A stretch of 45,564 bases of DNA from a virus: positions 1 through 45,564 of the IMG/VR virus record IMGVR_UViG_3300046471_000246; one strand, written 5' to 3'. The notes below the pieces were generated by a model. It was given only the letters and a program-made list of their open reading frames with translations, was not told the DNA's origin and ran no database searches. A program made the translations under genes and the position numbers. Positions 24,730-35,774 of this stretch are shown piece after piece. Numbering within the stretch: the first letter of the stretch is position 1; the number at the start of each line of letters is the position of its first letter.

Positions 24730-25935
24730 TTACGCGAGCGCGAAGCGACCTTTAACAAAGGCGTACTTCTTGCGCACGGCCAAGCCCAAGCGTTCTTCCA
24801 CCAGGATTGCACGCTGGTTCTTGATGAAGTCGTCGTTGATCATGCCGACCTTGATGGTGAAACCCATGCGATCGTAGATCCGCGCGCCCTGCTGGAACGA
24901 GCCGGTCAGGAACTCGCCACCGGTGGTGGAACCATCCCCCTCGTCCATGCTGTCGGACGCAACGACTGGTCGGCCCCACAGAATCGGCGTGACCAGGCCT
25001 TGCAAGTTGGCGAACAGGTAACGATTGTCCGCGTCCTTTTGCAGCTCGATGTTCATCCAATCCAGATCGGACATGACCACGGCGTCAGCGGGCAGCTTCG
25101 ACTGCTTACGGGCCTGGTAGATCGCGCGACGGACAGTATCGATCGCAGTGTCACTGGCCTTGCTCAGATCCGCGTCAAACACGGTGGCCTGAGTCATGAT
25201 GCCGTTGAGGTTGTTACCTGTACCGTCCCCCTTCAACAGCTGCCCTTCGCGCTTCAACTCCAGGTCGTAGCGCAGCAGCTCCTGAATGTAGCTGTACAAC
25301 TGGGGGACATCGTCCAGGGCCTCGTCGGTTACCGGCATCCATACGGCAATCTTCTTAACGATGTCGGTGACCTGCTCGAACGTCACGTTGCTTTGCGGCT
25401 TGGCGGCGCCCTCACCGACCATGCCCGCGCCAAGGGTATGCAGCAACTCACGGAAGTAGGTAAACGACTGCCCCGTGACTGGCGTGGTCGGGATCAGATC
25501 GCGGATCAGCAGGTTCTGACGGGGGGCGCCCTGAATTACCGGATCATATTGCGGCGCTACCAGGCCGGAGCTCGTGACCTTGGTTTCGGTCATGCTGGCC
25601 AAGTCGGATTTGGTGATTTCAATTTCTGCCGACGGCTGATTTTTTTGAGTCAGCGCCTGGTATTTGTCATTGCCTTTGACGAAGTCAATGAAGCTCTTCT
25701 TCTCCGGATTGAGGCCGCGCAGCTTGATGCCTTTCTCCTCAAGCTTTTGCACTTGCTCGATGACTCGTTCGATTTCGCCCTTTTGGTTTTCGATCTGCTT
25801 TTTCAGATCAGCCGAGGCACTATTACCTTTTTCCAGTTCGTCCGACACCGCGTCGTATTTGACTTGCAGGGTGCCGAAGCCTTCCTTGAGTTGCTTCTCA
25901 AGGGCTTCGCGAATTTCTTTTACGTCAGCGGTCAT
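24730..25935 (-). CDS. major capsid protein, HK97 fold
   Basis: The 401-residue protein has an N-terminal coiled-coil scaffold-like delta domain (residues about 1-100: EIREALEKQLKEGFG, KKQIENQKGEIERVIEQVQK). The HK97 capsid core follows, with SSGLVAPQYDPVIQGAPRQN, the E-loop region and a C-terminal KVGMINDDFIKNQRAILVEE. The protease gene upstream should remove the delta domain. Order protease-capsid-connector is standard for this group. Confidence 0.95.
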   Translation of the reverse strand: MTADVKEIREALEKQLKEGFGTLQVKYDAVSDELEKGNSASADLKKQIENQKGEIERVIEQVQKLEEKGIKLRGLNPEKKSFIDFVKGNDKYQALTQKNQPSAEIEITKSDLASMTETKVTSSGLVAPQYDPVIQGAPRQNLLIRDLIPTTPVTGQSFTYFRELLHTLGAGMVGEGAAKPQSNVTFEQVTDIVKKIAVWMPVTDEALDDVPQLYSYIQELLRYDLELKREGQLLKGDGTGNNLNGIMTQATVFDADLSKASDTAIDTVRRAIYQARKQSKLPADAVVMSDLDWMNIELQKDADNRYLFANLQGLVTPILWGRPVVASDSMDEGDGSTTGGEFLTGSFQQGARIYDRMGFTIKVGMINDDFIKNQRAILVEERLGLAVRKKYAFVKGRFALA

Positions 25936-26576
25936 GGCCGAGCTCCAAATTGAGTTGAGAACAGGTTGGAAATTTCTTTCAGCCCTTCCACGATCACCGT
26001 GGCCGCTCCGTCACCATCGCGGTGCACAGCGGGATAGCCGAGCGAGGCGACCGCAGCCGCCTCCTTTTGCGAGAGCCCCATGCGATCGCGCAGGGCCTTC
26101 TCAAAAATTCTGATGTCCGATTTAACGTCGGTAACTTGCGCGGCGGGGTTCATGCCAAAGGGCACCAGCGACGCTTCCCATAGTTCCGCCTGCTTGATGA
26201 TCCGCACGCTACGGCCCTCACGTTCTTCATACGCGGCGAGCAGCGTGTTGAAGCCGATTGACATGCTGTCGAGCGTGCCTTCCTTCATCAGTTCGTAAGC
26301 GTCACGGGCGTAGCTCACCGCAAGATTGACCTTGCCTTTGATGTACAGGCCGTGATCGTCCTGGCTGAAATCAGCCGACCCAACCAGCCGGGTCAGGTCA
26401 TGAAACAGCGCCAGTTTCAGTCGGCCGGCACGGGTGGTTTTCACTTTGGTGAACGCCCCCGGCAAGATCACGTCGTCACCCAAATCGATGTTATTGAACA
26501 CGGCCGCATAGCCTTCAAAGTTGCCCTGGTCGTCACTGGCCTTAACTTCGAATGGAACTTCAATCTTGCTTAACAT
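25932..26576 (-). CDS. HK97-family prohead protease
   Basis: The 214-residue protein begins VPFEVKASDDQGNFEGYAAV and contains DVILPGAFTKV, the histidine in LALFHDLTRLVGSAD and the serine in TLDSMSIGFN, the His and Ser of U35/S78-type prohead proteases. It trims the capsid scaffold during maturation. The start overlaps the portal stop by 17 bases and its end overlaps the capsid start by four. Confidence 0.94.
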   Translation of the reverse strand: MLSKIEVPFEVKASDDQGNFEGYAAVFNNIDLGDDVILPGAFTKVKTTRAGRLKLALFHDLTRLVGSADFSQDDHGLYIKGKVNLAVSYARDAYELMKEGTLDSMSIGFNTLLAAYEEREGRSVRIIKQAELWEASLVPFGMNPAAQVTDVKSDIRIFEKALRDRMGLSQKEAAAVASLGYPAVHRDGDGAATVIVEGLKEISNLFSTQFGARP

Positions 26577-27771
26577 TGGTGCTCATCTCCCACCGGGTGA
26601 CCCGGTCGTATTCGTCGCCCACCAGCGGCGGAAGGTTTTCTTTGCGCCGCACTTCGTTGATGGTCATCCACCCGGAACCGCCTGAGCCGCCGAGCGCGCT
26701 GCCGAAGTAAGTGGCGCGGCCCGCGCTATCTGCGCGCAGAATCCCTTCTACGAGAAATTCCACGAACAGTGTCGTGTCGCTAAACAGCTTGTCGTTGAGC
26801 TCGTCCTCGATCGCCTTGATGTAAGGGCTGAGGCCGAAGGTGATGAAGCCGCTGGTTTGCTGCTCCAGGTTGGAGCCCATGATCGAAGTCTTTCCGGCGC
26901 GGTTCGCCAGGTACAACGGCACACCGTATATCCCGGCAATCGCCTCTTCCTGAAACTGCTGCGACTCGATGAACTGGCTGTCCTTCTGCGACATACCCGC
27001 TGGGACAATCTTGGGCCCACCTTCAAGCAAGCCCATTTTTCCGATGTCCTCAACATCGCCTTCGCGAATCTTGGGGAATTTGTCGAGGACCTGCCCGCGC
27101 TGTTCCTTGGTCAGGAACTGTTCGTAAATTACGTAACCGCCGGTAAATCCGCCTTTGCGCATGAAACGCGACGACCAGTCCTGGGCCGCCTTGGCCAGCC
27201 CCATCGACTCCTTGTGAAACTCCACAGGCGATAGCCCATTGATCCCGTCAGCACTGAAGATCTTGAAATGCAGCATGTTCGCCGGCGAGACCGGGAAAGT
27301 GTTACCGCCAGAGGTGACCCAATAGATCAGCTCATCATCCGTATCCACGCGCACCGCATCGGAGCTCAAAGGGATCAAGCCAATGAATTCGCCACGGTCG
27401 TCGCGCTCGATCAGCGCGAAGGCATTACCGCGTAAAGCCATGTTCACGATGACGGCCTTGATGAAATTAAGCCGCGTCATGAACGGGTTGGGTTTAGCGA
27501 GTATGCGTTTTGCGCGCTTTTCCGCTTCAGCAAGGACGCGCCCATCAGGCTTGTCGTCGTAGAGTTTCAGGGGCAGCCCTGAAACTGTCTCGCTAAGAAT
27601 TTTGACGCAGGCCCACACGATGGGAATGGCCATCGCTCGCTTGGGAGTGATGACCGCACCAGAACGCGTCTGCCCCCCGATATCGGTTTCGACCTCTACG
27701 TATTTCCCGGTCGTGGGATCATTGAAGCCGAAGAAACTCCAGCTCATTGGGTTGTACCAGCGAGACGCCAT
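26560..27771 (-). CDS. portal protein, HK97 type
   Basis: The ATG at 27769-27771 is chosen (MASRWYNPMSWSFFGFNDPT); the frame runs further but only into the terminase gene. The 403-residue protein carries VWACVKILSETVSGLPLKLY, NAFALIERDDRGEFIGLIPL and TSIMGSNLEQQTSGFITFGL, all diagnostic of HK97-like portals. It forms the dodecameric DNA gate of the head. It follows the large terminase with a spacing of seven bases. Confidence 0.95.
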   Translation of the reverse strand: MASRWYNPMSWSFFGFNDPTTGKYVEVETDIGGQTRSGAVITPKRAMAIPIVWACVKILSETVSGLPLKLYDDKPDGRVLAEAEKRAKRILAKPNPFMTRLNFIKAVIVNMALRGNAFALIERDDRGEFIGLIPLSSDAVRVDTDDELIYWVTSGGNTFPVSPANMLHFKIFSADGINGLSPVEFHKESMGLAKAAQDWSSRFMRKGGFTGGYVIYEQFLTKEQRGQVLDKFPKIREGDVEDIGKMGLLEGGPKIVPAGMSQKDSQFIESQQFQEEAIAGIYGVPLYLANRAGKTSIMGSNLEQQTSGFITFGLSPYIKAIEDELNDKLFSDTTLFVEFLVEGILRADSAGRATYFGSALGGSGGSGWMTINEVRRKENLPPLVGDEYDRVTRWEMSTNVKQD

Positions 27772-27778
27772 ATTGAGC

Positions 27779-29542
27779 CTATAGAAGTCCAGAGAATCCA
27801 TGTTGGATGTAGTCGTCGATGTCGCCCTTCTCCTTTTCCTTGGCCCCATCTGCGGCACCAAAGGCCATTGCCATGGCAACCACCCCGTCGATCCGACCCG
27901 TGCTTTTGCGCTTGGCGAAGATTCGGTTGTCTTTTTGGTCCGCTTCCAGAACGGCGCTTGCCGCGTTCCAGCGCAGGACGGGGTTGGTCTTGATCTTTAC
28001 CTGCCGCTCGGTCAGCGCCTTTTCGGTCATCTCGATAGAGCGCGGCATCCACAGGCCGGAATCCTTTGAGACCGTGTAGCCCTGCCCGTGGGCCATCAGC
28101 GGTATGTCGACGCCCTGGGCATCCAGCTCGGGCGTGAAGTACTTGATTCGGTATGGGTCAAAAGCGATGCCCTTGATTTCATAACGGACTGCCAACTCGC
28201 CACAGCGGGCCGCTACAAACGAGTAGTCCACGGCCATGCCGGCAGGCGCATGCAGGAAGCCGCCACGCAGCCAGGCGTCATACGGCACACGGTCAACCCG
28301 CGCCCGTTCGAGCAGCGTGTCCTTGGGCGTCCAGAATTCAGCGACCACCAATTTCAGGCGCGGAAAGTACAGGACAAGGGCTGTTAAATCGCGCGTACCG
28401 GAAAGGTCGAGACCGCCATAGCACGGTTCGCCAATCGGAATGCTGTCGAGGTCGTAATCCTCTTCGCAGGCCATCCAGACGTCAGCAGCCAGCCAGGGGT
28501 TCTCGGCGTCTACCCACTCGCAGAAATTGAGACGGCGGACCGTCGATTCTTTCGACGGCATGCCCCGAGCCTCGGTGACCTGCTCGCGCAAGTACTTCAG
28601 TCCTGGAACACCGCCATTGGCATCACCGGCTTTGCCAAACGCCAGACTGGGGTTCGACTTGTACCAGCAGCCCTCATCCTTGAACGGGTCGTCGCCCTCA
28701 TCCAGCGAGCAGATAAAGGCGAACATGCTGTCGTCGGACTTGTTGCCCGCACTGACGGCTTTGCCATATTCGTGGTAGTCGTAGCAGATCGTGGTCCGGT
28801 CGTGGCCGCTGTTGGTGATCATCACGATCAACGCCTGCCGACGGCTCTTGGTACCGGCCCGCATCATGTCTACGACCATGCGGGTCTTGTGTTCGTGGAT
28901 CTCGTCGAGCAAGGCAATGTGCGGACGTGGGCCCGACTGGCCATCGTCGGCGCTGATCGGACGGAAAAAGCTACCGGAGCCATAGTGCGCCAGGTTCCAA
29001 ACCTTCTCCCCGCGCCCCGATTTTTCAATGCGATCAGCGAGCAGTCCTGACTGATCGACCATTGAAACCGCATCGCGGAACAGGATCATCGCCTGATCTT
29101 TTTTCGTAGCCGCAGCGTAGATTTCTGCGCGAGCCTCGCCGTCTGAGGTCATACCAAACAGCCCGATACCGGCTGCAAGAGGCGACTTGCCGGAACCCTT
29201 TGCGGTCTCGATATAAGCAGTCCGGAAGCGCCGGTATCCATCGGCGCCTTTCCAACCAAACAAAGACCCGACAATGAAAGCCTGCCAAGGGTTGAGGATG
29301 AAGGGCATTCCTTCGTACTCACCGCCGTTGAGGCACAACACATTCTCGAAATAACCGATGGCATGCTCGGCGGCGTCGGTGTCGAACCGCAGACCGCGTG
29401 CCGGGCCCAGCGCCAGATCGTTCATGTGACGTTGACATGCATCCCGGACGGCCTGTCCTGCGATGATCTCTTTGGCCAGAACGGCCTGGGCGTAAAGCGT
29501 TGCGCGATCAGAAGTACCTGTTTGCGATGTCCTGTTCTTCAT
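27779..29542 (-). CDS. terminase large subunit
   Basis: The 587-residue protein shows LNPWQAFIVGSLFGWK (adenine-binding/Q motif region), Walker A in ETAKGSGKSPLA at about residues 112-123, Walker B LLDEIHEHK at about 210-218, and a C-terminal nuclease part with GGLDLSGTRDLTALVL and DPYRIKYF. It belongs to the HK97/Terminase_1 type that packages DNA into the procapsid. Its start overlaps the end of the small subunit by 35 bases. Confidence 0.96.
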   Translation of the reverse strand: MKNRTSQTGTSDRATLYAQAVLAKEIIAGQAVRDACQRHMNDLALGPARGLRFDTDAAEHAIGYFENVLCLNGGEYEGMPFILNPWQAFIVGSLFGWKGADGYRRFRTAYIETAKGSGKSPLAAGIGLFGMTSDGEARAEIYAAATKKDQAMILFRDAVSMVDQSGLLADRIEKSGRGEKVWNLAHYGSGSFFRPISADDGQSGPRPHIALLDEIHEHKTRMVVDMMRAGTKSRRQALIVMITNSGHDRTTICYDYHEYGKAVSAGNKSDDSMFAFICSLDEGDDPFKDEGCWYKSNPSLAFGKAGDANGGVPGLKYLREQVTEARGMPSKESTVRRLNFCEWVDAENPWLAADVWMACEEDYDLDSIPIGEPCYGGLDLSGTRDLTALVLYFPRLKLVVAEFWTPKDTLLERARVDRVPYDAWLRGGFLHAPAGMAVDYSFVAARCGELAVRYEIKGIAFDPYRIKYFTPELDAQGVDIPLMAHGQGYTVSKDSGLWMPRSIEMTEKALTERQVKIKTNPVLRWNAASAVLEADQKDNRIFAKRKSTGRIDGVVAMAMAFGAADGAKEKEKGDIDDYIQHGFSGLL

Positions 29543-30035
29543 TCGGGAAAAGCTCGCCCTGAGGTGCGGGCGCTTTCAGCGACCTCCGCGCCATGGGCGA
29601 GAAACCGAATTTGGCGCCTGCATCGTTTGCACGCCGCTCGGCGTCGTTGCGCAATTTGCGCCAGATGGAAAGGTCCTGAGCGCCTGTCTTGTACGTCTGC
29701 ACATCGCCGCGCGTACCCGATGACATGGTGGCGTTTAGGGCCTGAATATTGAGCGTCCAGCGACGGTAATCCGACACCGCCTCGCAGTACTGAGCCATGG
29801 CCTGCATATCCATTTTGGAGATCAAGCCCAGCTTAACCAGGTCGGGCACCACCCGCGCCCACTCTTGGCGAGCGTCGTCGTCGAGCCAATCCGGCATCGG
29901 CGGTGCCTCTACCGGCATCACGGGCTGTTGGTGCTCACGCAGAAGGTTTGCTGCGTTCTTTTTGCTTGGATTTCCGTTCAGCAAATGGACGATGGCCGGC
30001 TTGGCTGGACGTCCAGAATTCTCGTTCCCGGCCAT
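29508..30035 (-). CDS. terminase small subunit, P27 family
   Basis: The 175-residue protein begins MAGNENSGRPAKPAIVHLLN and contains GNPSKKNAAN and MPDWLDDDARQEWARVVPDL, the typical N-terminus and W-LDDxAxxEW motif of P27-family small terminases. These recognise cos DNA and bring the large subunit. The candidate cos region lies immediately upstream, next to an HNH gene. Confidence 0.94.
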   Translation of the reverse strand: MAGNENSGRPAKPAIVHLLNGNPSKKNAANLLREHQQPVMPVEAPPMPDWLDDDARQEWARVVPDLVKLGLISKMDMQAMAQYCEAVSDYRRWTLNIQALNATMSSGTRGDVQTYKTGAQDLSIWRKLRNDAERRANDAGAKFGFSPMARRSLKAPAPQGELFPNEEQDIANRYF

Positions 30036-31516: not shown

Positions 31517-31996
31517 TTAAGCACGCGGGCGACCTGCCCCATTGTTAGTGATTCGACACTGGGAATTGCGCGCACGCCTGCCAGTGTATCCCCGCGTAGC
31601 ACCGCTTCTGACGACCAAGGTCAACATCACCTGCTGATGAAGACGTTGCACCCAGTTCCGATACGTCCTGTCGGCACCCTCAGGAATTCCGGCTATCCGC
31701 ATCTGCTCGCGGACGGTTGCAGCTTCACAATATCTCTGACGGGCGAGGAGCGCTAAGCGCGGTCCGTTACCTGTACTACGCGCGAGCTGGGCAACGGCCG
31801 CTTCAATCTCGGATGCGATGAAGTCCATCCCTACACCACCACCGCCCAGTATCCTTGATCCCGGAGTGCCACGCGGCGCACAGCCACCCCATTCGATGAT
31901 GGTTCCCAACTGGCTACCCAAGGCACCGCCACCCAGGCCGTGCTGACGCAACTGCTCGCCCCAATGCAGCATCAAGTCCTCGATTTCCTTAATCAT
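31517..31996 (-). CDS. Q-position hypothetical protein, possible late regulator
   Basis: The 159-residue product begins MIKEIEDLMLHWGEQLRQHG, has a Gly-rich stretch, then AVAQLARSTGNGPRLALLAR and a helix-turn-helix-like segment around AATVREQMRIAGIPEGADR followed by TYRNWVQRLHQQVM. Similar proteins are common at this place in Pseudomonas prophages. It is the last gene of the early operon and is followed by the late terminator, which argues for a Q-like antiterminator or late activator; sequence alone does not prove it. The ATG overlaps the stop of the iteron-bearing gene (ATGA). Confidence 0.65.
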   Translation of the reverse strand: MIKEIEDLMLHWGEQLRQHGLGGGALGSQLGTIIEWGGCAPRGTPGSRILGGGGVGMDFIASEIEAAVAQLARSTGNGPRLALLARQRYCEAATVREQMRIAGIPEGADRTYRNWVQRLHQQVMLTLVVRSGATRGYTGRRARNSQCRITNNGAGRPRA

Positions 31997-32325
31997 CCCC
32001 TCTTCCTCTTCGAAAACAGACCCAACACAGAATTTTGACTTCCCGACACAAACCCAACACAGGAAAAACTCTTTAAAACCAAACGTTTATTAATATTTGT
32101 GTTGAGTGTGTTGGGTTTGTTGGGTTTATAGGTCCTCGCATAGAGATTTTTTTCCTCTCCAAATGAATCAAAAAATACGTCGCAGGCACGCGCGCGCGCG
32201 CAAACCCAACACACCCGACACAGTGCCCGTTTAGCCCCGAATTCATTGACCTTTACCTGTGTTGACTTGGCAATATCAACCCGACACACACCCAACACAC
32301 CCAACACACTTTTATTCGGACTCAT
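31993..32325 (-). CDS. hypothetical protein encoded across the iteron region, 110 aa
   Basis: This frame starts with an ATG that shares ATGA with the primase stop (32322-32325) and ends in a TGA that shares ATGA with the next start (31993-31996). The double coupling is the main evidence that it is a gene. Because the DNA is full of CCCAACACA-type repeats, the protein is repetitive (VLGVLGVC, ALCRVCWVC, YKPNKPNTLN). It contains no recognised domain. It could be an origin-binding or simply origin-carrying gene. Confidence 0.55.
   Translation of the reverse strand: MSPNKSVLGVLGVCRVDIAKSTQVKVNEFGAKRALCRVCWVCARARACDVFFDSFGEEKNLYARTYKPNKPNTLNTNINKRLVLKSFSCVGFVSGSQNSVLGLFSKRKRG
32021..32308. repeat. 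iteron cluster CCC(A/G)ACACA, candidate replication origin
   Basis: CCCAACACA or CCCGACACA occurs at 32021, 32042, 32053, 32205, 32214, 32280, 32291 and 32300, with an inverted copy at 32107-32115 and a partial one at 32116-32124. An AT-rich stretch (TTTATTAATATTTG, 32086-32099) and an alternating CG run near 32190-32201 lie between the clusters. Iterons, AT-rich DNA and an adjacent primase-helicase gene are the ingredients of a phage origin. Confidence 0.65.
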
Positions 32326-34997
32326 GCTGCTATCGCCTTGACGTGATCCCACGAATCCACGTGCCACCCGGCAAGCTTGGCTTTCGCACGCCAATCGTCG
32401 ACAAGGGCGCCAAGCGCTGCTGCCTTCAATGATGGGGGCTGGGAAGCCTCAGGATCATTGGGAAAAAAGAACGCACCGAAACGACGGTTATTACCCTCGG
32501 TCCATGGTATCGAGCGGGTTTTATCGACTTCAGAGCTGACGAATAGTGAAAACTTGGTCTGGCTCATCACATGTTCTCTATTGCGCTGGCACCACTCAAC
32601 GAACAGCGCGTACAGATCGCTACTTAGGCAGGCACCCCAAAGATTTCGCCCAAGCTCCCCGTATTTCCACAGGAACAGAAAGGTTTGCCAGCCAGCCCGA
32701 CTGAGTGCCACTAACCGCTCACGGGCGTCAGTGCTTGGCGGCCGGGTGCGCTCGTTGAAATCACCCAGGTCGACACGCAGTAGCCAGGAGTACAGAGCAG
32801 CCACACCGCCATCTAACAGCTCGCGGCCGATTGCCTTCTGGCGATCCACCGGCAGCGTGTCTAACGGCCACATGACCAACATCCGGCGATCACTCTCGCT
32901 GATTGGCCAAGGCAGAATTTCGTTGCTGAGAAATACAGCGTTCATATGGTTGGATTCCTCCCAGCCATTGATGAACTTTGATTCCATGCGTACGGTTTTC
33001 CCGGTTACCAGGTGCTTGATCTTGCCCACCTGGTTGTAACGCTGATCGCGGCTCACAACCTCTTCAAACACAGCCCAAAGCTTACGGCTTTGCCATGCGT
33101 TGAAATTACTCTCCAACTGCGTCTGCCCAACCGTTGCCGCGTATTGCCCGTACAAAGCACCAAAAGTGTCGGCGAACAAAAGGCTCTTCCCCGACCCCTC
33201 CATCGTCGAATGCATCAGAACGGCGGTGTCCATCTTTGCGCCGAGATACTGGAGCGGATAAGCGAGCCAACGCGTCAGCCATGTTGCCGCATCGGTGTCG
33301 TGGTTACAGAGGAAGGAGATTAGCCACCGAAGGTTCGCGCAGGCGTCATCACTTTCGATAGGTTCCAAAGGCAGCCCCTCGAATGTGTTGATGTATACCG
33401 ATGGATCCTTGGTCATCGTTGGGTCAAACACGATGTGATCGACATCAACCACACGCCGATCTGCGCTGTTCAACCAGAGCGGGTAGGTATCACCTAGAGC
33501 CATCTTCACAGCGCCTTCGGGCACGCGCCGCTTTTTCTCTCTGTCCCAAACATCCTTCGTTCCGTCGATGTAGACATATCGATCAACCGGCCCAAGACCG
33601 AGGGCACCGCCCTTCCTGCCGGTCATTTTGCGGGCTTGCTCACTGGCCCGGACCAGTTCATCCGAAACAAGCTTTTTGCGCGAATCCTCCAACCATAGCT
33701 TTACCAGGGGTCTACCGATCAGGGCTTCAAACGCTGCCTTCTTCATCCCTCGAGCCTTATCGCCGTCCCACACCTGCGTTGTGCCTTCGACCAACGCAAA
33801 GCGGCGAATTACCTGTTCAAGGGTCAGTCCCTCCCCCGCCCCCCCGTCAGCTGCAGGAGCGGCCTCGCTTACGGCGCCGGGCTCTGCTTCGGAGACTGAT
33901 GGGGTCGGGGGAAGGTCGTTTGGGTAAGCTCGCGAGGTTTGCATTCCGAGCATCCGCGCAGCTTCTTTCACGGCCCGGGACTGGTCGCCGCCATGTTCAA
34001 GCAGGCAAAAAACTTCAAAGGCGTCATTCTGGTGACCGTTAGCCAGCGGATCCGCGCCATGATGGGAATACACTTTCCCATCGCTGATCGTGATGCCTGG
34101 GAGCCCCGTACTACTCTGCGGATAAAGCCATTTGCTGCCACGCTTGATGTAACCATGGGCGCGCAACAACTCGGCCACGTCATGGCCTCGGTTGAATTCA
34201 TCAATCACCGAGGGACGATCACCAGATGGTGCAGGGCGTGGCTTCGATTTAACCGTAAGCTTCTGCGCTTTTGGTGCCCATGGACAGGCGGCTTCTGCAT
34301 CGCGCTTGAACAGATCCCAGTTTTGCCAGATGGCCAGCAATTCGGATGTGAGCACAGGAAGCCCATCAGCAGCCGGCGGTGTTTGCCAGGTATATGGCTT
34401 ACCGGTGCCTGGGTGGATTGACGGCGGCAACACGTCCTGCACCAAGCCGGCTCGCAGCTCGAAAACCGTGAAGCGTTTGTATTGCTCAGCCTCAGCCCGA
34501 AACAATAGCTCGCGGGCGGAATCGCCGGCGTCCTTAGCTCTGTTGGCTTTGAGCATGATCGACTTATGAATCGAGCCGTCCGGATCGTTTGGATTCGGCC
34601 AGGCCAACGAATGCCGGGTCAGATCGATGTCATCAGGCAACCGAAACAGCACACGAAACCGTGCGGGATTACCGACCACCGTCGGGAACGCAACAGCCAT
34701 CGCATCCAGGTCGAGGCCCAGCAACTCGAAGAGTACGTGGCGAGTCCACTGGACATCGTCCACATCCAATGAACAGACGCGGCTTGGGCCCAGCACAACG
34801 CCGAGGTTGTGCTGCGGGTGTTTCACCCAAAAGGCTTCGGCCTTAGCCGCATCGGTGAGATATCCGCCGGGTTGATTCCAGCCCCGACCTTTCGGCGCCT
34901 TCTCACCCGGTTCGATTGGGACGAGTGCCAGGTTAAATGTTGCGATGTATTGCCGAGCCCATGCTGCGGTACTACTTGGGGTCGAACGCTCGGTCAT
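32322..34997 (-). CDS. replicative primase-helicase (prim-pol plus D5/SF3-type helicase)
   Basis: The ATG at 34995-34997 overlaps the stop of the DksA-like gene (ATGA) and gives 891 residues. Residues 1-210 form a bifunctional primase/polymerase domain (LALVPIEPGEKAPKGRGW; catalytic DVDD at about 78-81). A linker follows with zinc- or DNA-binding-like segments, then a superfamily 3 helicase with Walker A MEGSGKSLLFAD (GSGKS at 601-605) and WAVFEEV as Walker B. This is the P4-alpha/D5 class: it primes and unwinds at the phage origin, which may be the iteron cluster immediately downstream. Confidence 0.92.
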   Translation of the reverse strand: MTERSTPSSTAAWARQYIATFNLALVPIEPGEKAPKGRGWNQPGGYLTDAAKAEAFWVKHPQHNLGVVLGPSRVCSLDVDDVQWTRHVLFELLGLDLDAMAVAFPTVVGNPARFRVLFRLPDDIDLTRHSLAWPNPNDPDGSIHKSIMLKANRAKDAGDSARELLFRAEAEQYKRFTVFELRAGLVQDVLPPSIHPGTGKPYTWQTPPAADGLPVLTSELLAIWQNWDLFKRDAEAACPWAPKAQKLTVKSKPRPAPSGDRPSVIDEFNRGHDVAELLRAHGYIKRGSKWLYPQSSTGLPGITISDGKVYSHHGADPLANGHQNDAFEVFCLLEHGGDQSRAVKEAARMLGMQTSRAYPNDLPPTPSVSEAEPGAVSEAAPAADGGAGEGLTLEQVIRRFALVEGTTQVWDGDKARGMKKAAFEALIGRPLVKLWLEDSRKKLVSDELVRASEQARKMTGRKGGALGLGPVDRYVYIDGTKDVWDREKKRRVPEGAVKMALGDTYPLWLNSADRRVVDVDHIVFDPTMTKDPSVYINTFEGLPLEPIESDDACANLRWLISFLCNHDTDAATWLTRWLAYPLQYLGAKMDTAVLMHSTMEGSGKSLLFADTFGALYGQYAATVGQTQLESNFNAWQSRKLWAVFEEVVSRDQRYNQVGKIKHLVTGKTVRMESKFINGWEESNHMNAVFLSNEILPWPISESDRRMLVMWPLDTLPVDRQKAIGRELLDGGVAALYSWLLRVDLGDFNERTRPPSTDARERLVALSRAGWQTFLFLWKYGELGRNLWGACLSSDLYALFVEWCQRNREHVMSQTKFSLFVSSEVDKTRSIPWTEGNNRRFGAFFFPNDPEASQPPSLKAAALGALVDDWRAKAKLAGWHVDSWDHVKAIAA

Positions 34998-35197
34998 TTC
35001 CGCCGCTCCCGCAGCTCTTGGCAGGAAACGCACGTTTGGCACCCTAAAACCTTCTCACGTCGAAGAGCAGGAATGGGCTCATCACAGTCGTAGCAGAATT
35101 GAGCGCTGGCACGGACAGGCATCTTGGCGCGCTGCAACAAAGCCATATCAAGGAGATATTGGGCCTGATCGTTGGCAACATCTATGACGTCAGCCAT
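34994..35197 (-). CDS. TraR/DksA-family zinc-finger protein
   Basis: The ATG at 35195-35197 gives 67 residues ending in the C4 zinc finger CYDCDEPIP...CQTCVSC with RR and K in between, the hallmark of TraR/DksA-like phage proteins. Such proteins bind the RNA polymerase secondary channel and can redirect transcription. Start and stop overlap the CII-like and primase genes, so it is co-translated in the early operon. Confidence 0.9.
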   Translation of the reverse strand: MADVIDVANDQAQYLLDMALLQRAKMPVRASAQFCYDCDEPIPALRREKVLGCQTCVSCQELRERRK

Positions 35198-35678
35198 TGT
35201 CCCGATCCTCCATTGCCAGGCGGGCGCCGGCCATGATGCCAAGGACCTCACGGATCACGTCAGCACCATGTTTCTCAAGGTCGATGACTTCGTGCAACTC
35301 CCAAATATTATCGGCGGCGCCGTCGTGCATCTTGGCAACAAACTCCCCCGTTTCGCCGAGCAATTTGCCGACTGCAAGCAGAGCCTCTTTTGTTGCGGCA
35401 ACGGGGGCAGGACGATACCAAACGGCGCCTGCAGGACGCATCAAAGCGTCAAGCAGTCGGTAGTCGCCTGTGAGACGGATTACCTCTTCCAGCTCGTCGG
35501 GCGTCAGCCAGCGACGCTCTTCATCAAGCTTGAGCTTCTTCTGGAGAGTGTCGTTCTCGACGACCATGTCGAAGGCAAGGGCAGTGAGTCCGCCCTTGTA
35601 GTCGCGCCCTGCGCGATAGAGCGCCTGACGCAACGAAAGAACCTGACCAGCGTCAGGCAAAAGATCTGTGCGACTCAT
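35190..35678 (-). CDS. phage CII-like regulatory protein (Phage_CP76 type)
   Basis: From the ATG at 35676-35678 the 162-residue product has LSLRQALYRAGRDYKGGLTA, LAFDMVVENDTLQKKLKLDE and LTPDELEEVIRLTGDYRLLD, matching the P2 CII/CP76 regulator family with an N-terminal helix-turn-helix. It is the second gene behind Cro on the early operon and probably controls the lysis-lysogeny choice or early replication. A perfect inverted repeat sits immediately upstream of the start, where a strong ribosome-binding site is lacking. Confidence 0.88.
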   Translation of the reverse strand: MSRTDLLPDAGQVLSLRQALYRAGRDYKGGLTALAFDMVVENDTLQKKLKLDEERRWLTPDELEEVIRLTGDYRLLDALMRPAGAVWYRPAPVAATKEALLAVGKLLGETGEFVAKMHDGAADNIWELHEVIDLEKHGADVIREVLGIMAGARLAMEDRDNG

Positions 35679-35679
35679 A

Positions 35680-35702
35680 ACCGTAAATACCCCGTTTACG
35701 GT
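35680..35702. promoter_or_regulatory. inverted repeat at the CII-like start
   Basis: ACCGTAAA-N7-TTTACGGT is a perfect 8-bp inverted repeat ending one base before the start codon. It could be an operator or an RNA hairpin over the translation initiation region. It does not resemble the CI operators. Confidence 0.55.
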
Positions 35703-35774
35703 GTAGCCATGGGACAGGGCACGCCCTATCCTACGACCACGACCGATGTGCATGTGCTGTGTGTCGTCGTAGCT

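Follow-up and report, generated by a model that had tools for sequence, protein, structure and literature searches.

What does a phage gain from an open reading frame laid across repeats that look like a replication origin? The question is raised by a 333-nt gap in the IMG/VR virus record IMGVR_UViG_3300046471_000246, positions 1 to 45,564 of which we analysed (the window; 45,564 nt). The gap separates a gene for a primase-helicase from the next gene on the minus strand and is filled by a frame of 110 codons (31993..32325), which is joined to its neighbours by ATGA overlaps at both ends: 32322-32325 with the primase stop and 31993-31996 with the start of the next gene. A preliminary description of the window had regarded this segment as both origin and gene, in the manner of lambda O. 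Our analysis indicates that the segment quite probably serves a temperate Pseudomonas phage as its replication origin, and that it is threaded by a pass-through frame selected for being translated.

Substitution patterns in the frame

We compared the gap with its counterparts in IMG/VR and in genome contigs, about 198 loci that represent about 200 related prophages, mostly of Pseudomonas; searches of distant genomes added few informative loci. Across 55 ungapped pairs of sister loci with 1256 substitutions, a single new stop codon was observed in the frame entered at the ATGA, against 71 (range 49-83) expected when the changed sites were kept and the new base was drawn. A null model with movable sites raised the expectation to 85.7. 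In the other five frames the stop gains amounted to 0.7-1.3 of the expectation. Among the controls, the primase behaved as a gene in the same test, while a small intergenic stretch behind the antiterminator gene displayed no stop avoidance. As translation is in our view the sole process able to yield such a frame-specific signal, these observations suggest that the frame is translated.

The same comparisons point to a product whose composition is of no consequence. The substitutions in the ungapped pairs are spread over the three codon positions of the frame as 423/430/403, as against 323/223/1489 in the primase; outside the iterons, 83 sister pairs gave 632/596/594 for the frame and 873/476/3568 for the primase. 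The frame has an omega of about 1.15, and the BLOSUM scores of its replacements equal those of random ones. Its indels divide by length modulo 3 as 8/57/22, and in gapped pairs with shifted segments both frames are still open in 15 of 23 cases. Identical iteron arrays give VLGVLG, VCWVCWV or CVGCVG, depending on the relative. No Pfam or PHROG match was found for the product. Selection for an open frame is present as in a protein gene, and purifying selection on amino acids is not; on the codon-position, omega and indel tests we reject an ordinary protein gene. Taken together, the substitution statistics show, as far as a comparison of sequences can, that translation of the frame is under selection and its amino-acid sequence is not. 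Accordingly, one half of the proposal that the DNA is "both origin and gene" has to be restated: the frame appears to be translated, but the view that it is the gene of a working protein is not supported.

Start, end and openness of the frame

The start of the frame is anchored in the primase gene. In the main iteron class, which has 168 loci (see below), the last base of the final primase codon is A in 165 and G in three, although A makes up only 9% of the third positions nearby, and the primase stop is TGA in every one; an ATG or GTG start hence overlaps the primase stop in 168 of 168 loci. Shine-Dalgarno-like pairing ahead of this start reaches -6.9 kcal/mol, as opposed to -3.3 kcal/mol at random primase sites. 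The frame stays open for at least 105 codons in 159 of these loci, and in most of them the next gene begins before its stop has ended (-1 in 112 loci and -5 in 22). With the iterons fixed and the spacers shuffled, chance would produce such openness at a rate of about 1% for the window and of 1-9% per locus. We also considered whether the primase might be extended by read-through or frameshifting; however, the primase frame is not open beyond its TGA, and the conserved final A is more in keeping with a start codon than with a slippery site.

A few loci depart from this scheme. In two of them, L066 and L091, no stop separates the origin frame from the downstream Q-like gene, and a fusion protein of about 270 residues is predicted. 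In phage Turba (L003) the primase is annotated in two pieces and the origin frame closes after 83 codons, possibly owing to a sequencing or decay frameshift.

Comparable frames are found with other repeats. In a second iteron clade (L109-L115) an ATG lies five bases before the primase stop and opens a different frame up to the next start, and at three further loci with other iterons (L101, L119 and L121) the frame is likewise open to the next gene. We somewhat favour the view that these belong to a recurring class of filler frames, which have unrelated iterons and different starts and frames in different clades, and whose translation would be their sole selected property: they would be threaded through cis-acting DNA so that ribosomes can trail the RNA polymerase.

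Iterons and associated elements in the gap

The window contains nine exact copies of CCC(A/G)ACACA, eight on the plus and one on the minus strand, and every one of them lies within 32021-32308; 0.69 copies are expected, and none of 100 shuffles reached nine. To these can be added three imperfect inverted copies at 32098 (TGTGTTGAG), 32116 (TTTGTTGGG) and 32258 (TGTGTTGAC). In the direction of transcription, the gap begins with iteron group 1 (32280..32308), comprising CCCGACACA at 32280 and CCCAACACA at 32291 and 32300. It is followed by the lone imperfect inverted iteron TGTGTTGAC (32258..32266), in whose place the relatives also carry an inverted copy, and by group 2 (32205..32222; CCCAACACA at 32205 and CCCGACACA at 32214). 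Next come a CG tract of alternating purines and pyrimidines (32186..32202) and a conserved element on the minus strand (CTATGCGAGG in the sense direction; 32134..32143), which in most relatives stands after a T- or A-run. The inverted group 3 (32098..32124; TGTGTTGAG at 32098, TGTGTTGGG at 32107 and TTTGTTGGG at 32116) and the plus-strand group 4 (32021..32061; CCCAACACA at 32021, CCCGACACA at 32042 and CCCAACACA at 32053), whose positions are the same in relatives, flank an AT-rich core (32065..32098). This core, a candidate DNA unwinding element, has the lowest stability of any 34-bp stretch in the 1.2 kb to either side, and only eight of 45,531 positions across the window are equally unstable. 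Every descriptive detail of the preliminary account that we checked was borne out, namely the eight direct copies with their inverted counterparts, the AT-rich core, the CG tract and the frame with its two ATGA links. Folds of single sequences at the CG tract share no common structure, and a hairpin or terminator conserved in the RNA was therefore rejected there. A literature search for the repeat sequence returned unrelated primers only.

This layout recurs in the relatives. The best phage relatives have an identical arrangement straight after the primase, and grouped direct iterons, one inverted iteron, a CG tract, an inverted group, an AT core and a direct group succeed one another in nearly all of the loci. 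The main class, with CCCAACACA iterons, comprises 168 loci, including four with CCTTACACA; at the remaining loci, comparable positions are taken by CCCTAACCA, CCCTAGACA, CCCTAGTAA, CCCTAGCA or unrelated repeats. L191, L192, L198 and L199 combine CCTTACACA with CCCAACACA iterons within one gap and are possible intermediates in a change of iteron. The last two iteron groups enclose the least stable stretch, which lies at offset 210-240 in 152 of 191 relatives. For the following tallies, and for that of the downstream neighbours, two loci that had been mis-located on another open reading frame (L100 and L154) were excluded. In the part of the gap holding the CG tract, the longest alternating purine/pyrimidine run has a median of 18 nt in the relatives and of 5 nt in the primase control. 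An element of the TATGCGAGG type is present in 142 of 196 gaps, where the density in the primase would predict 0.11 per gap. In the gaps L001-L201 it takes the form (T)n-CT-YATGCGAGG, has the CG tract on one side and the inverted iterons on the other, and spans iteron classes; it also occurs in the distant locus L250. At that locus, iterons with the 7-mer TGGCACA, in 10 copies, lie behind a distant relative of the primase-helicase, as do two elements composed of a T-run and GCGAG. Of all the gaps scanned with a strict pattern, L104 and L107 alone contained DnaA boxes. In both, and by eye in L247, the DnaA-box-like TTATCCACA lies beside the CG tract of the CCCTAGACA clade; it is absent from the main clade.

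The primase-helicase as the proposed initiator

The primase-helicase (906 residues; 32322..35042, minus strand) combines an N-terminal Prim-Pol domain (Pfam, 6e-20) with a C-terminal SF3-like helicase of the DUF5906 family (3e-18). Its C-terminal half has a profile match to the C-terminal region of the NrS-1 polymerase (7e-18). In the VIA structural comparison the protein reaches Z-scores of 16.7 to NrS-1 and 11.8 to the SaPI5 primase-helicase (root-mean-square deviation 5.9, 339 residues); for the latter there was no PDB match at the sequence level.

Natural recombinants allow the two halves to be told apart. Between L001 and L007 (phage KT1), most of the first 360 residues are 92-100% identical while most of the C-terminal half is 35-55% identical, and the iterons are unlike (CCCAACACA versus CCCTAACCA); L008 and L096 show the same pattern of like N-terminal and divergent C-terminal halves with divergent iterons. 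Conversely, L008 and the window have unrelated N-terminal halves, C-terminal halves that are 80% identical and the identical iteron, and L007 and L096 have unrelated N-terminal halves, C-terminal parts that are 67% similar and, again, the identical iteron. In these four natural pairs the type of iteron goes with the helicase half. The comparative evidence is thus strong that iteron specificity maps to the C-terminal, not the N-terminal, half of the primase; it is likewise strong for an origin role of the gap. The C-terminal half would then bind the iterons, melt the AT-rich core and initiate replication. Five loci (L008, L009, L145, L200 and L096) have an unrelated N-terminal half, annotated as PriCT-2, and retain the helicase half and the iterons; this swap represents a modular exchange near residues 360-390.

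The downstream gene and a proposed role of ribosome passage

The early region, on the minus strand of the window, is typical of a temperate phage according to the list of open reading frames and their Pfam and PHROG matches. A CII-like regulator (35190-35753) is followed by a small TraR-like frame, the primase-helicase, the pass-through frame and a gene for a protein of 159 residues (31517..31996), directly before a holin (Pfam) and the DNA-packaging genes. Portal-like, terminase-like and capsid-protease-like frames, judged from the list, lie at 25932-30035, and the relatives are annotated as complete phages. The 159-residue protein matches phrog_4300 (2.6e-54), whose function is unannotated. 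Its top six matches in the VIA structural comparison are all to the Q protein of bacteriophage 21 (Z 8.1-9.8). This comparison rests on a mostly helical model with a pLDDT of 77 and about 9% identity, and the Foldseek match is not significant (E above 1). The position ahead of the holin is where Q belongs, and the protein is predicted to be a Q-type antiterminator.

These contexts place the origin within an early operon that would extend from the gene of the initiator to that of a Q-type antiterminator. The ATGA at the primase stop would launch ribosomes into the origin frame, which they would leave at the antiterminator start; on their way they would cover the nascent RNA, so that transcription reaches Q despite Rho-dependent polarity, and/or couple the translation of Q to that of the primase. 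Rho loads on C-rich, G-poor RNA, and the transcript of the inverted iteron group is of this kind, with 19 C and 5 G in 70 nt. Together with the Q-like position of the next gene, this favours a cover against polarity, possibly with coupled translation. Hence, the frame most likely serves as a pass-through for anti-polarity and/or for coupling between initiator and Q. Several observations weigh against this proposal. The frame is broken in nine of the 168 main-class loci, and 19 of the 28 loci of other iteron classes, including all CCCTAACCA and CCCTAGTAA loci and half of the CCCTAGACA loci, are not open throughout and still have the Q-like gene downstream. In these closed clades an open frame is harder to maintain because the repeats hold TAG or TTAG-type triplets. 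As each of the 190 loci whose flank is long enough has the Q-like relative downstream, whether its frame is open or closed, ribosome passage does not seem indispensable, and we dropped the hypothesis that the frame persists only ahead of a Q-like gene. Further, the Q-like gene has a good Shine-Dalgarno sequence itself, so coupling would not be strictly needed for initiation, which argues against coupling alone.

Other explanations can be set against the same evidence. The traffic of ribosomes and transcripts might act on the origin instead, by preventing R-loops or by controlling when replication takes place and how the initiator gains access. In favour of this, the frame extends over the entire origin, and the direct-iteron transcript is G-rich and could be R-loop-prone. 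However, a frame ending exactly at the next gene suits an effect on the operon at least equally well, and we hold this explanation to be unlikely. A real, fast-evolving protein of 110 residues would account for the conservation of start, stop and openness together, but it is improbable given the omega, the lack of an excess at third positions or of a conservative bias in the replacements, the tolerated frameshifting indels, the arrays read in several frames and the lack of a Pfam or PHROG match.

The remaining two explanations deny the origin or the translated frame, respectively. Iteron-like arrays are also known to act as operator or centromere sites, so the repeats might be bound by a repressor or partition protein; this is very improbable, as their location 3' of the primase-helicase, the iteron-flanked AT-core and their co-inheritance with the helicase half of the primase match experimentally tested pri-rep-ori modules of phage-inducible chromosomal islands (PICIs) (PMC6092414). 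That the gap is an untranslated origin, open by chance or by the constraints of repeat DNA, is scarcely credible. Arrays of the CCCAACACA type are indeed free of stops in every frame, and in several related phages no gene is annotated in the gap; yet stops are avoided in one frame and not in the other five, and openness by chance is rare even when the iterons are held fixed.

If the pass-through reading is true, some "hypothetical proteins" of phage operons would be roads for ribosomes, and conservation of an open frame alone would be no proof of a functional protein. The locus offers a clean and statistically strong case of translation apparently selected without selection on the protein, natural recombinants that would assign iteron specificity to the helicase half of an initiator, and a satellite-type origin that can now be placed in temperate Pseudomonas phages of full size, which form a large group.

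Comparison with known systems

The initiator resembles NrS-1 in uniting a Prim-Pol and a hexameric SF3 helicase in one protein, and NrS-1 is the best solved relative of its C-terminal half (PMC7102993), although the identity over the structural alignment is only 14-16%. Searching that paper for origin and repeat terms brought up neither an origin nor iterons (PMC7102993). The downstream protein has its place before the lysis genes in common with the Q protein of bacteriophage 21 and is predicted to resemble it in fold, but the two show no significant sequence match.

As in lambda, iterons and an AT-rich region lie in translated sequence of an early operon (PMC6022878). The comparison with lambda O holds for this layout only: the lambda origin is inside the initiator gene O, whose protein matters, whereas here the initiator gene is followed by a separate frame that contains the origin, has an omega of about 1.15 and shows no constraint on its amino acids. 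In lambda, in-frame deletions in the AT-rich part of the origin leave a complementing O protein (PMC6022878). The initiators also differ, being O plus the host DnaB in lambda and a primase-helicase here.

The closest counterpart is found in the PICIs and the Staphylococcus aureus pathogenicity islands (SaPIs), whose pri-rep-ori module has an origin organization that, according to its authors, was shared by no other known replicon (PMC6092414). In the window and its relatives the origin is immediately 3' of the primase/initiator gene, two iteron sets (groups 3 and 4) surround the AT-rich region, and the initiator fold is related to that of the solved SaPI5 primase-helicase. Judged by this organization, the gap appears to be an iteron origin of the PICI/SaPI kind. 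It differs in its setting, a temperate phage of full size that carries genes for capsid, portal and terminase and is no satellite, and in having extra upstream iteron groups, a CG tract and a seemingly selected open frame across the origin.
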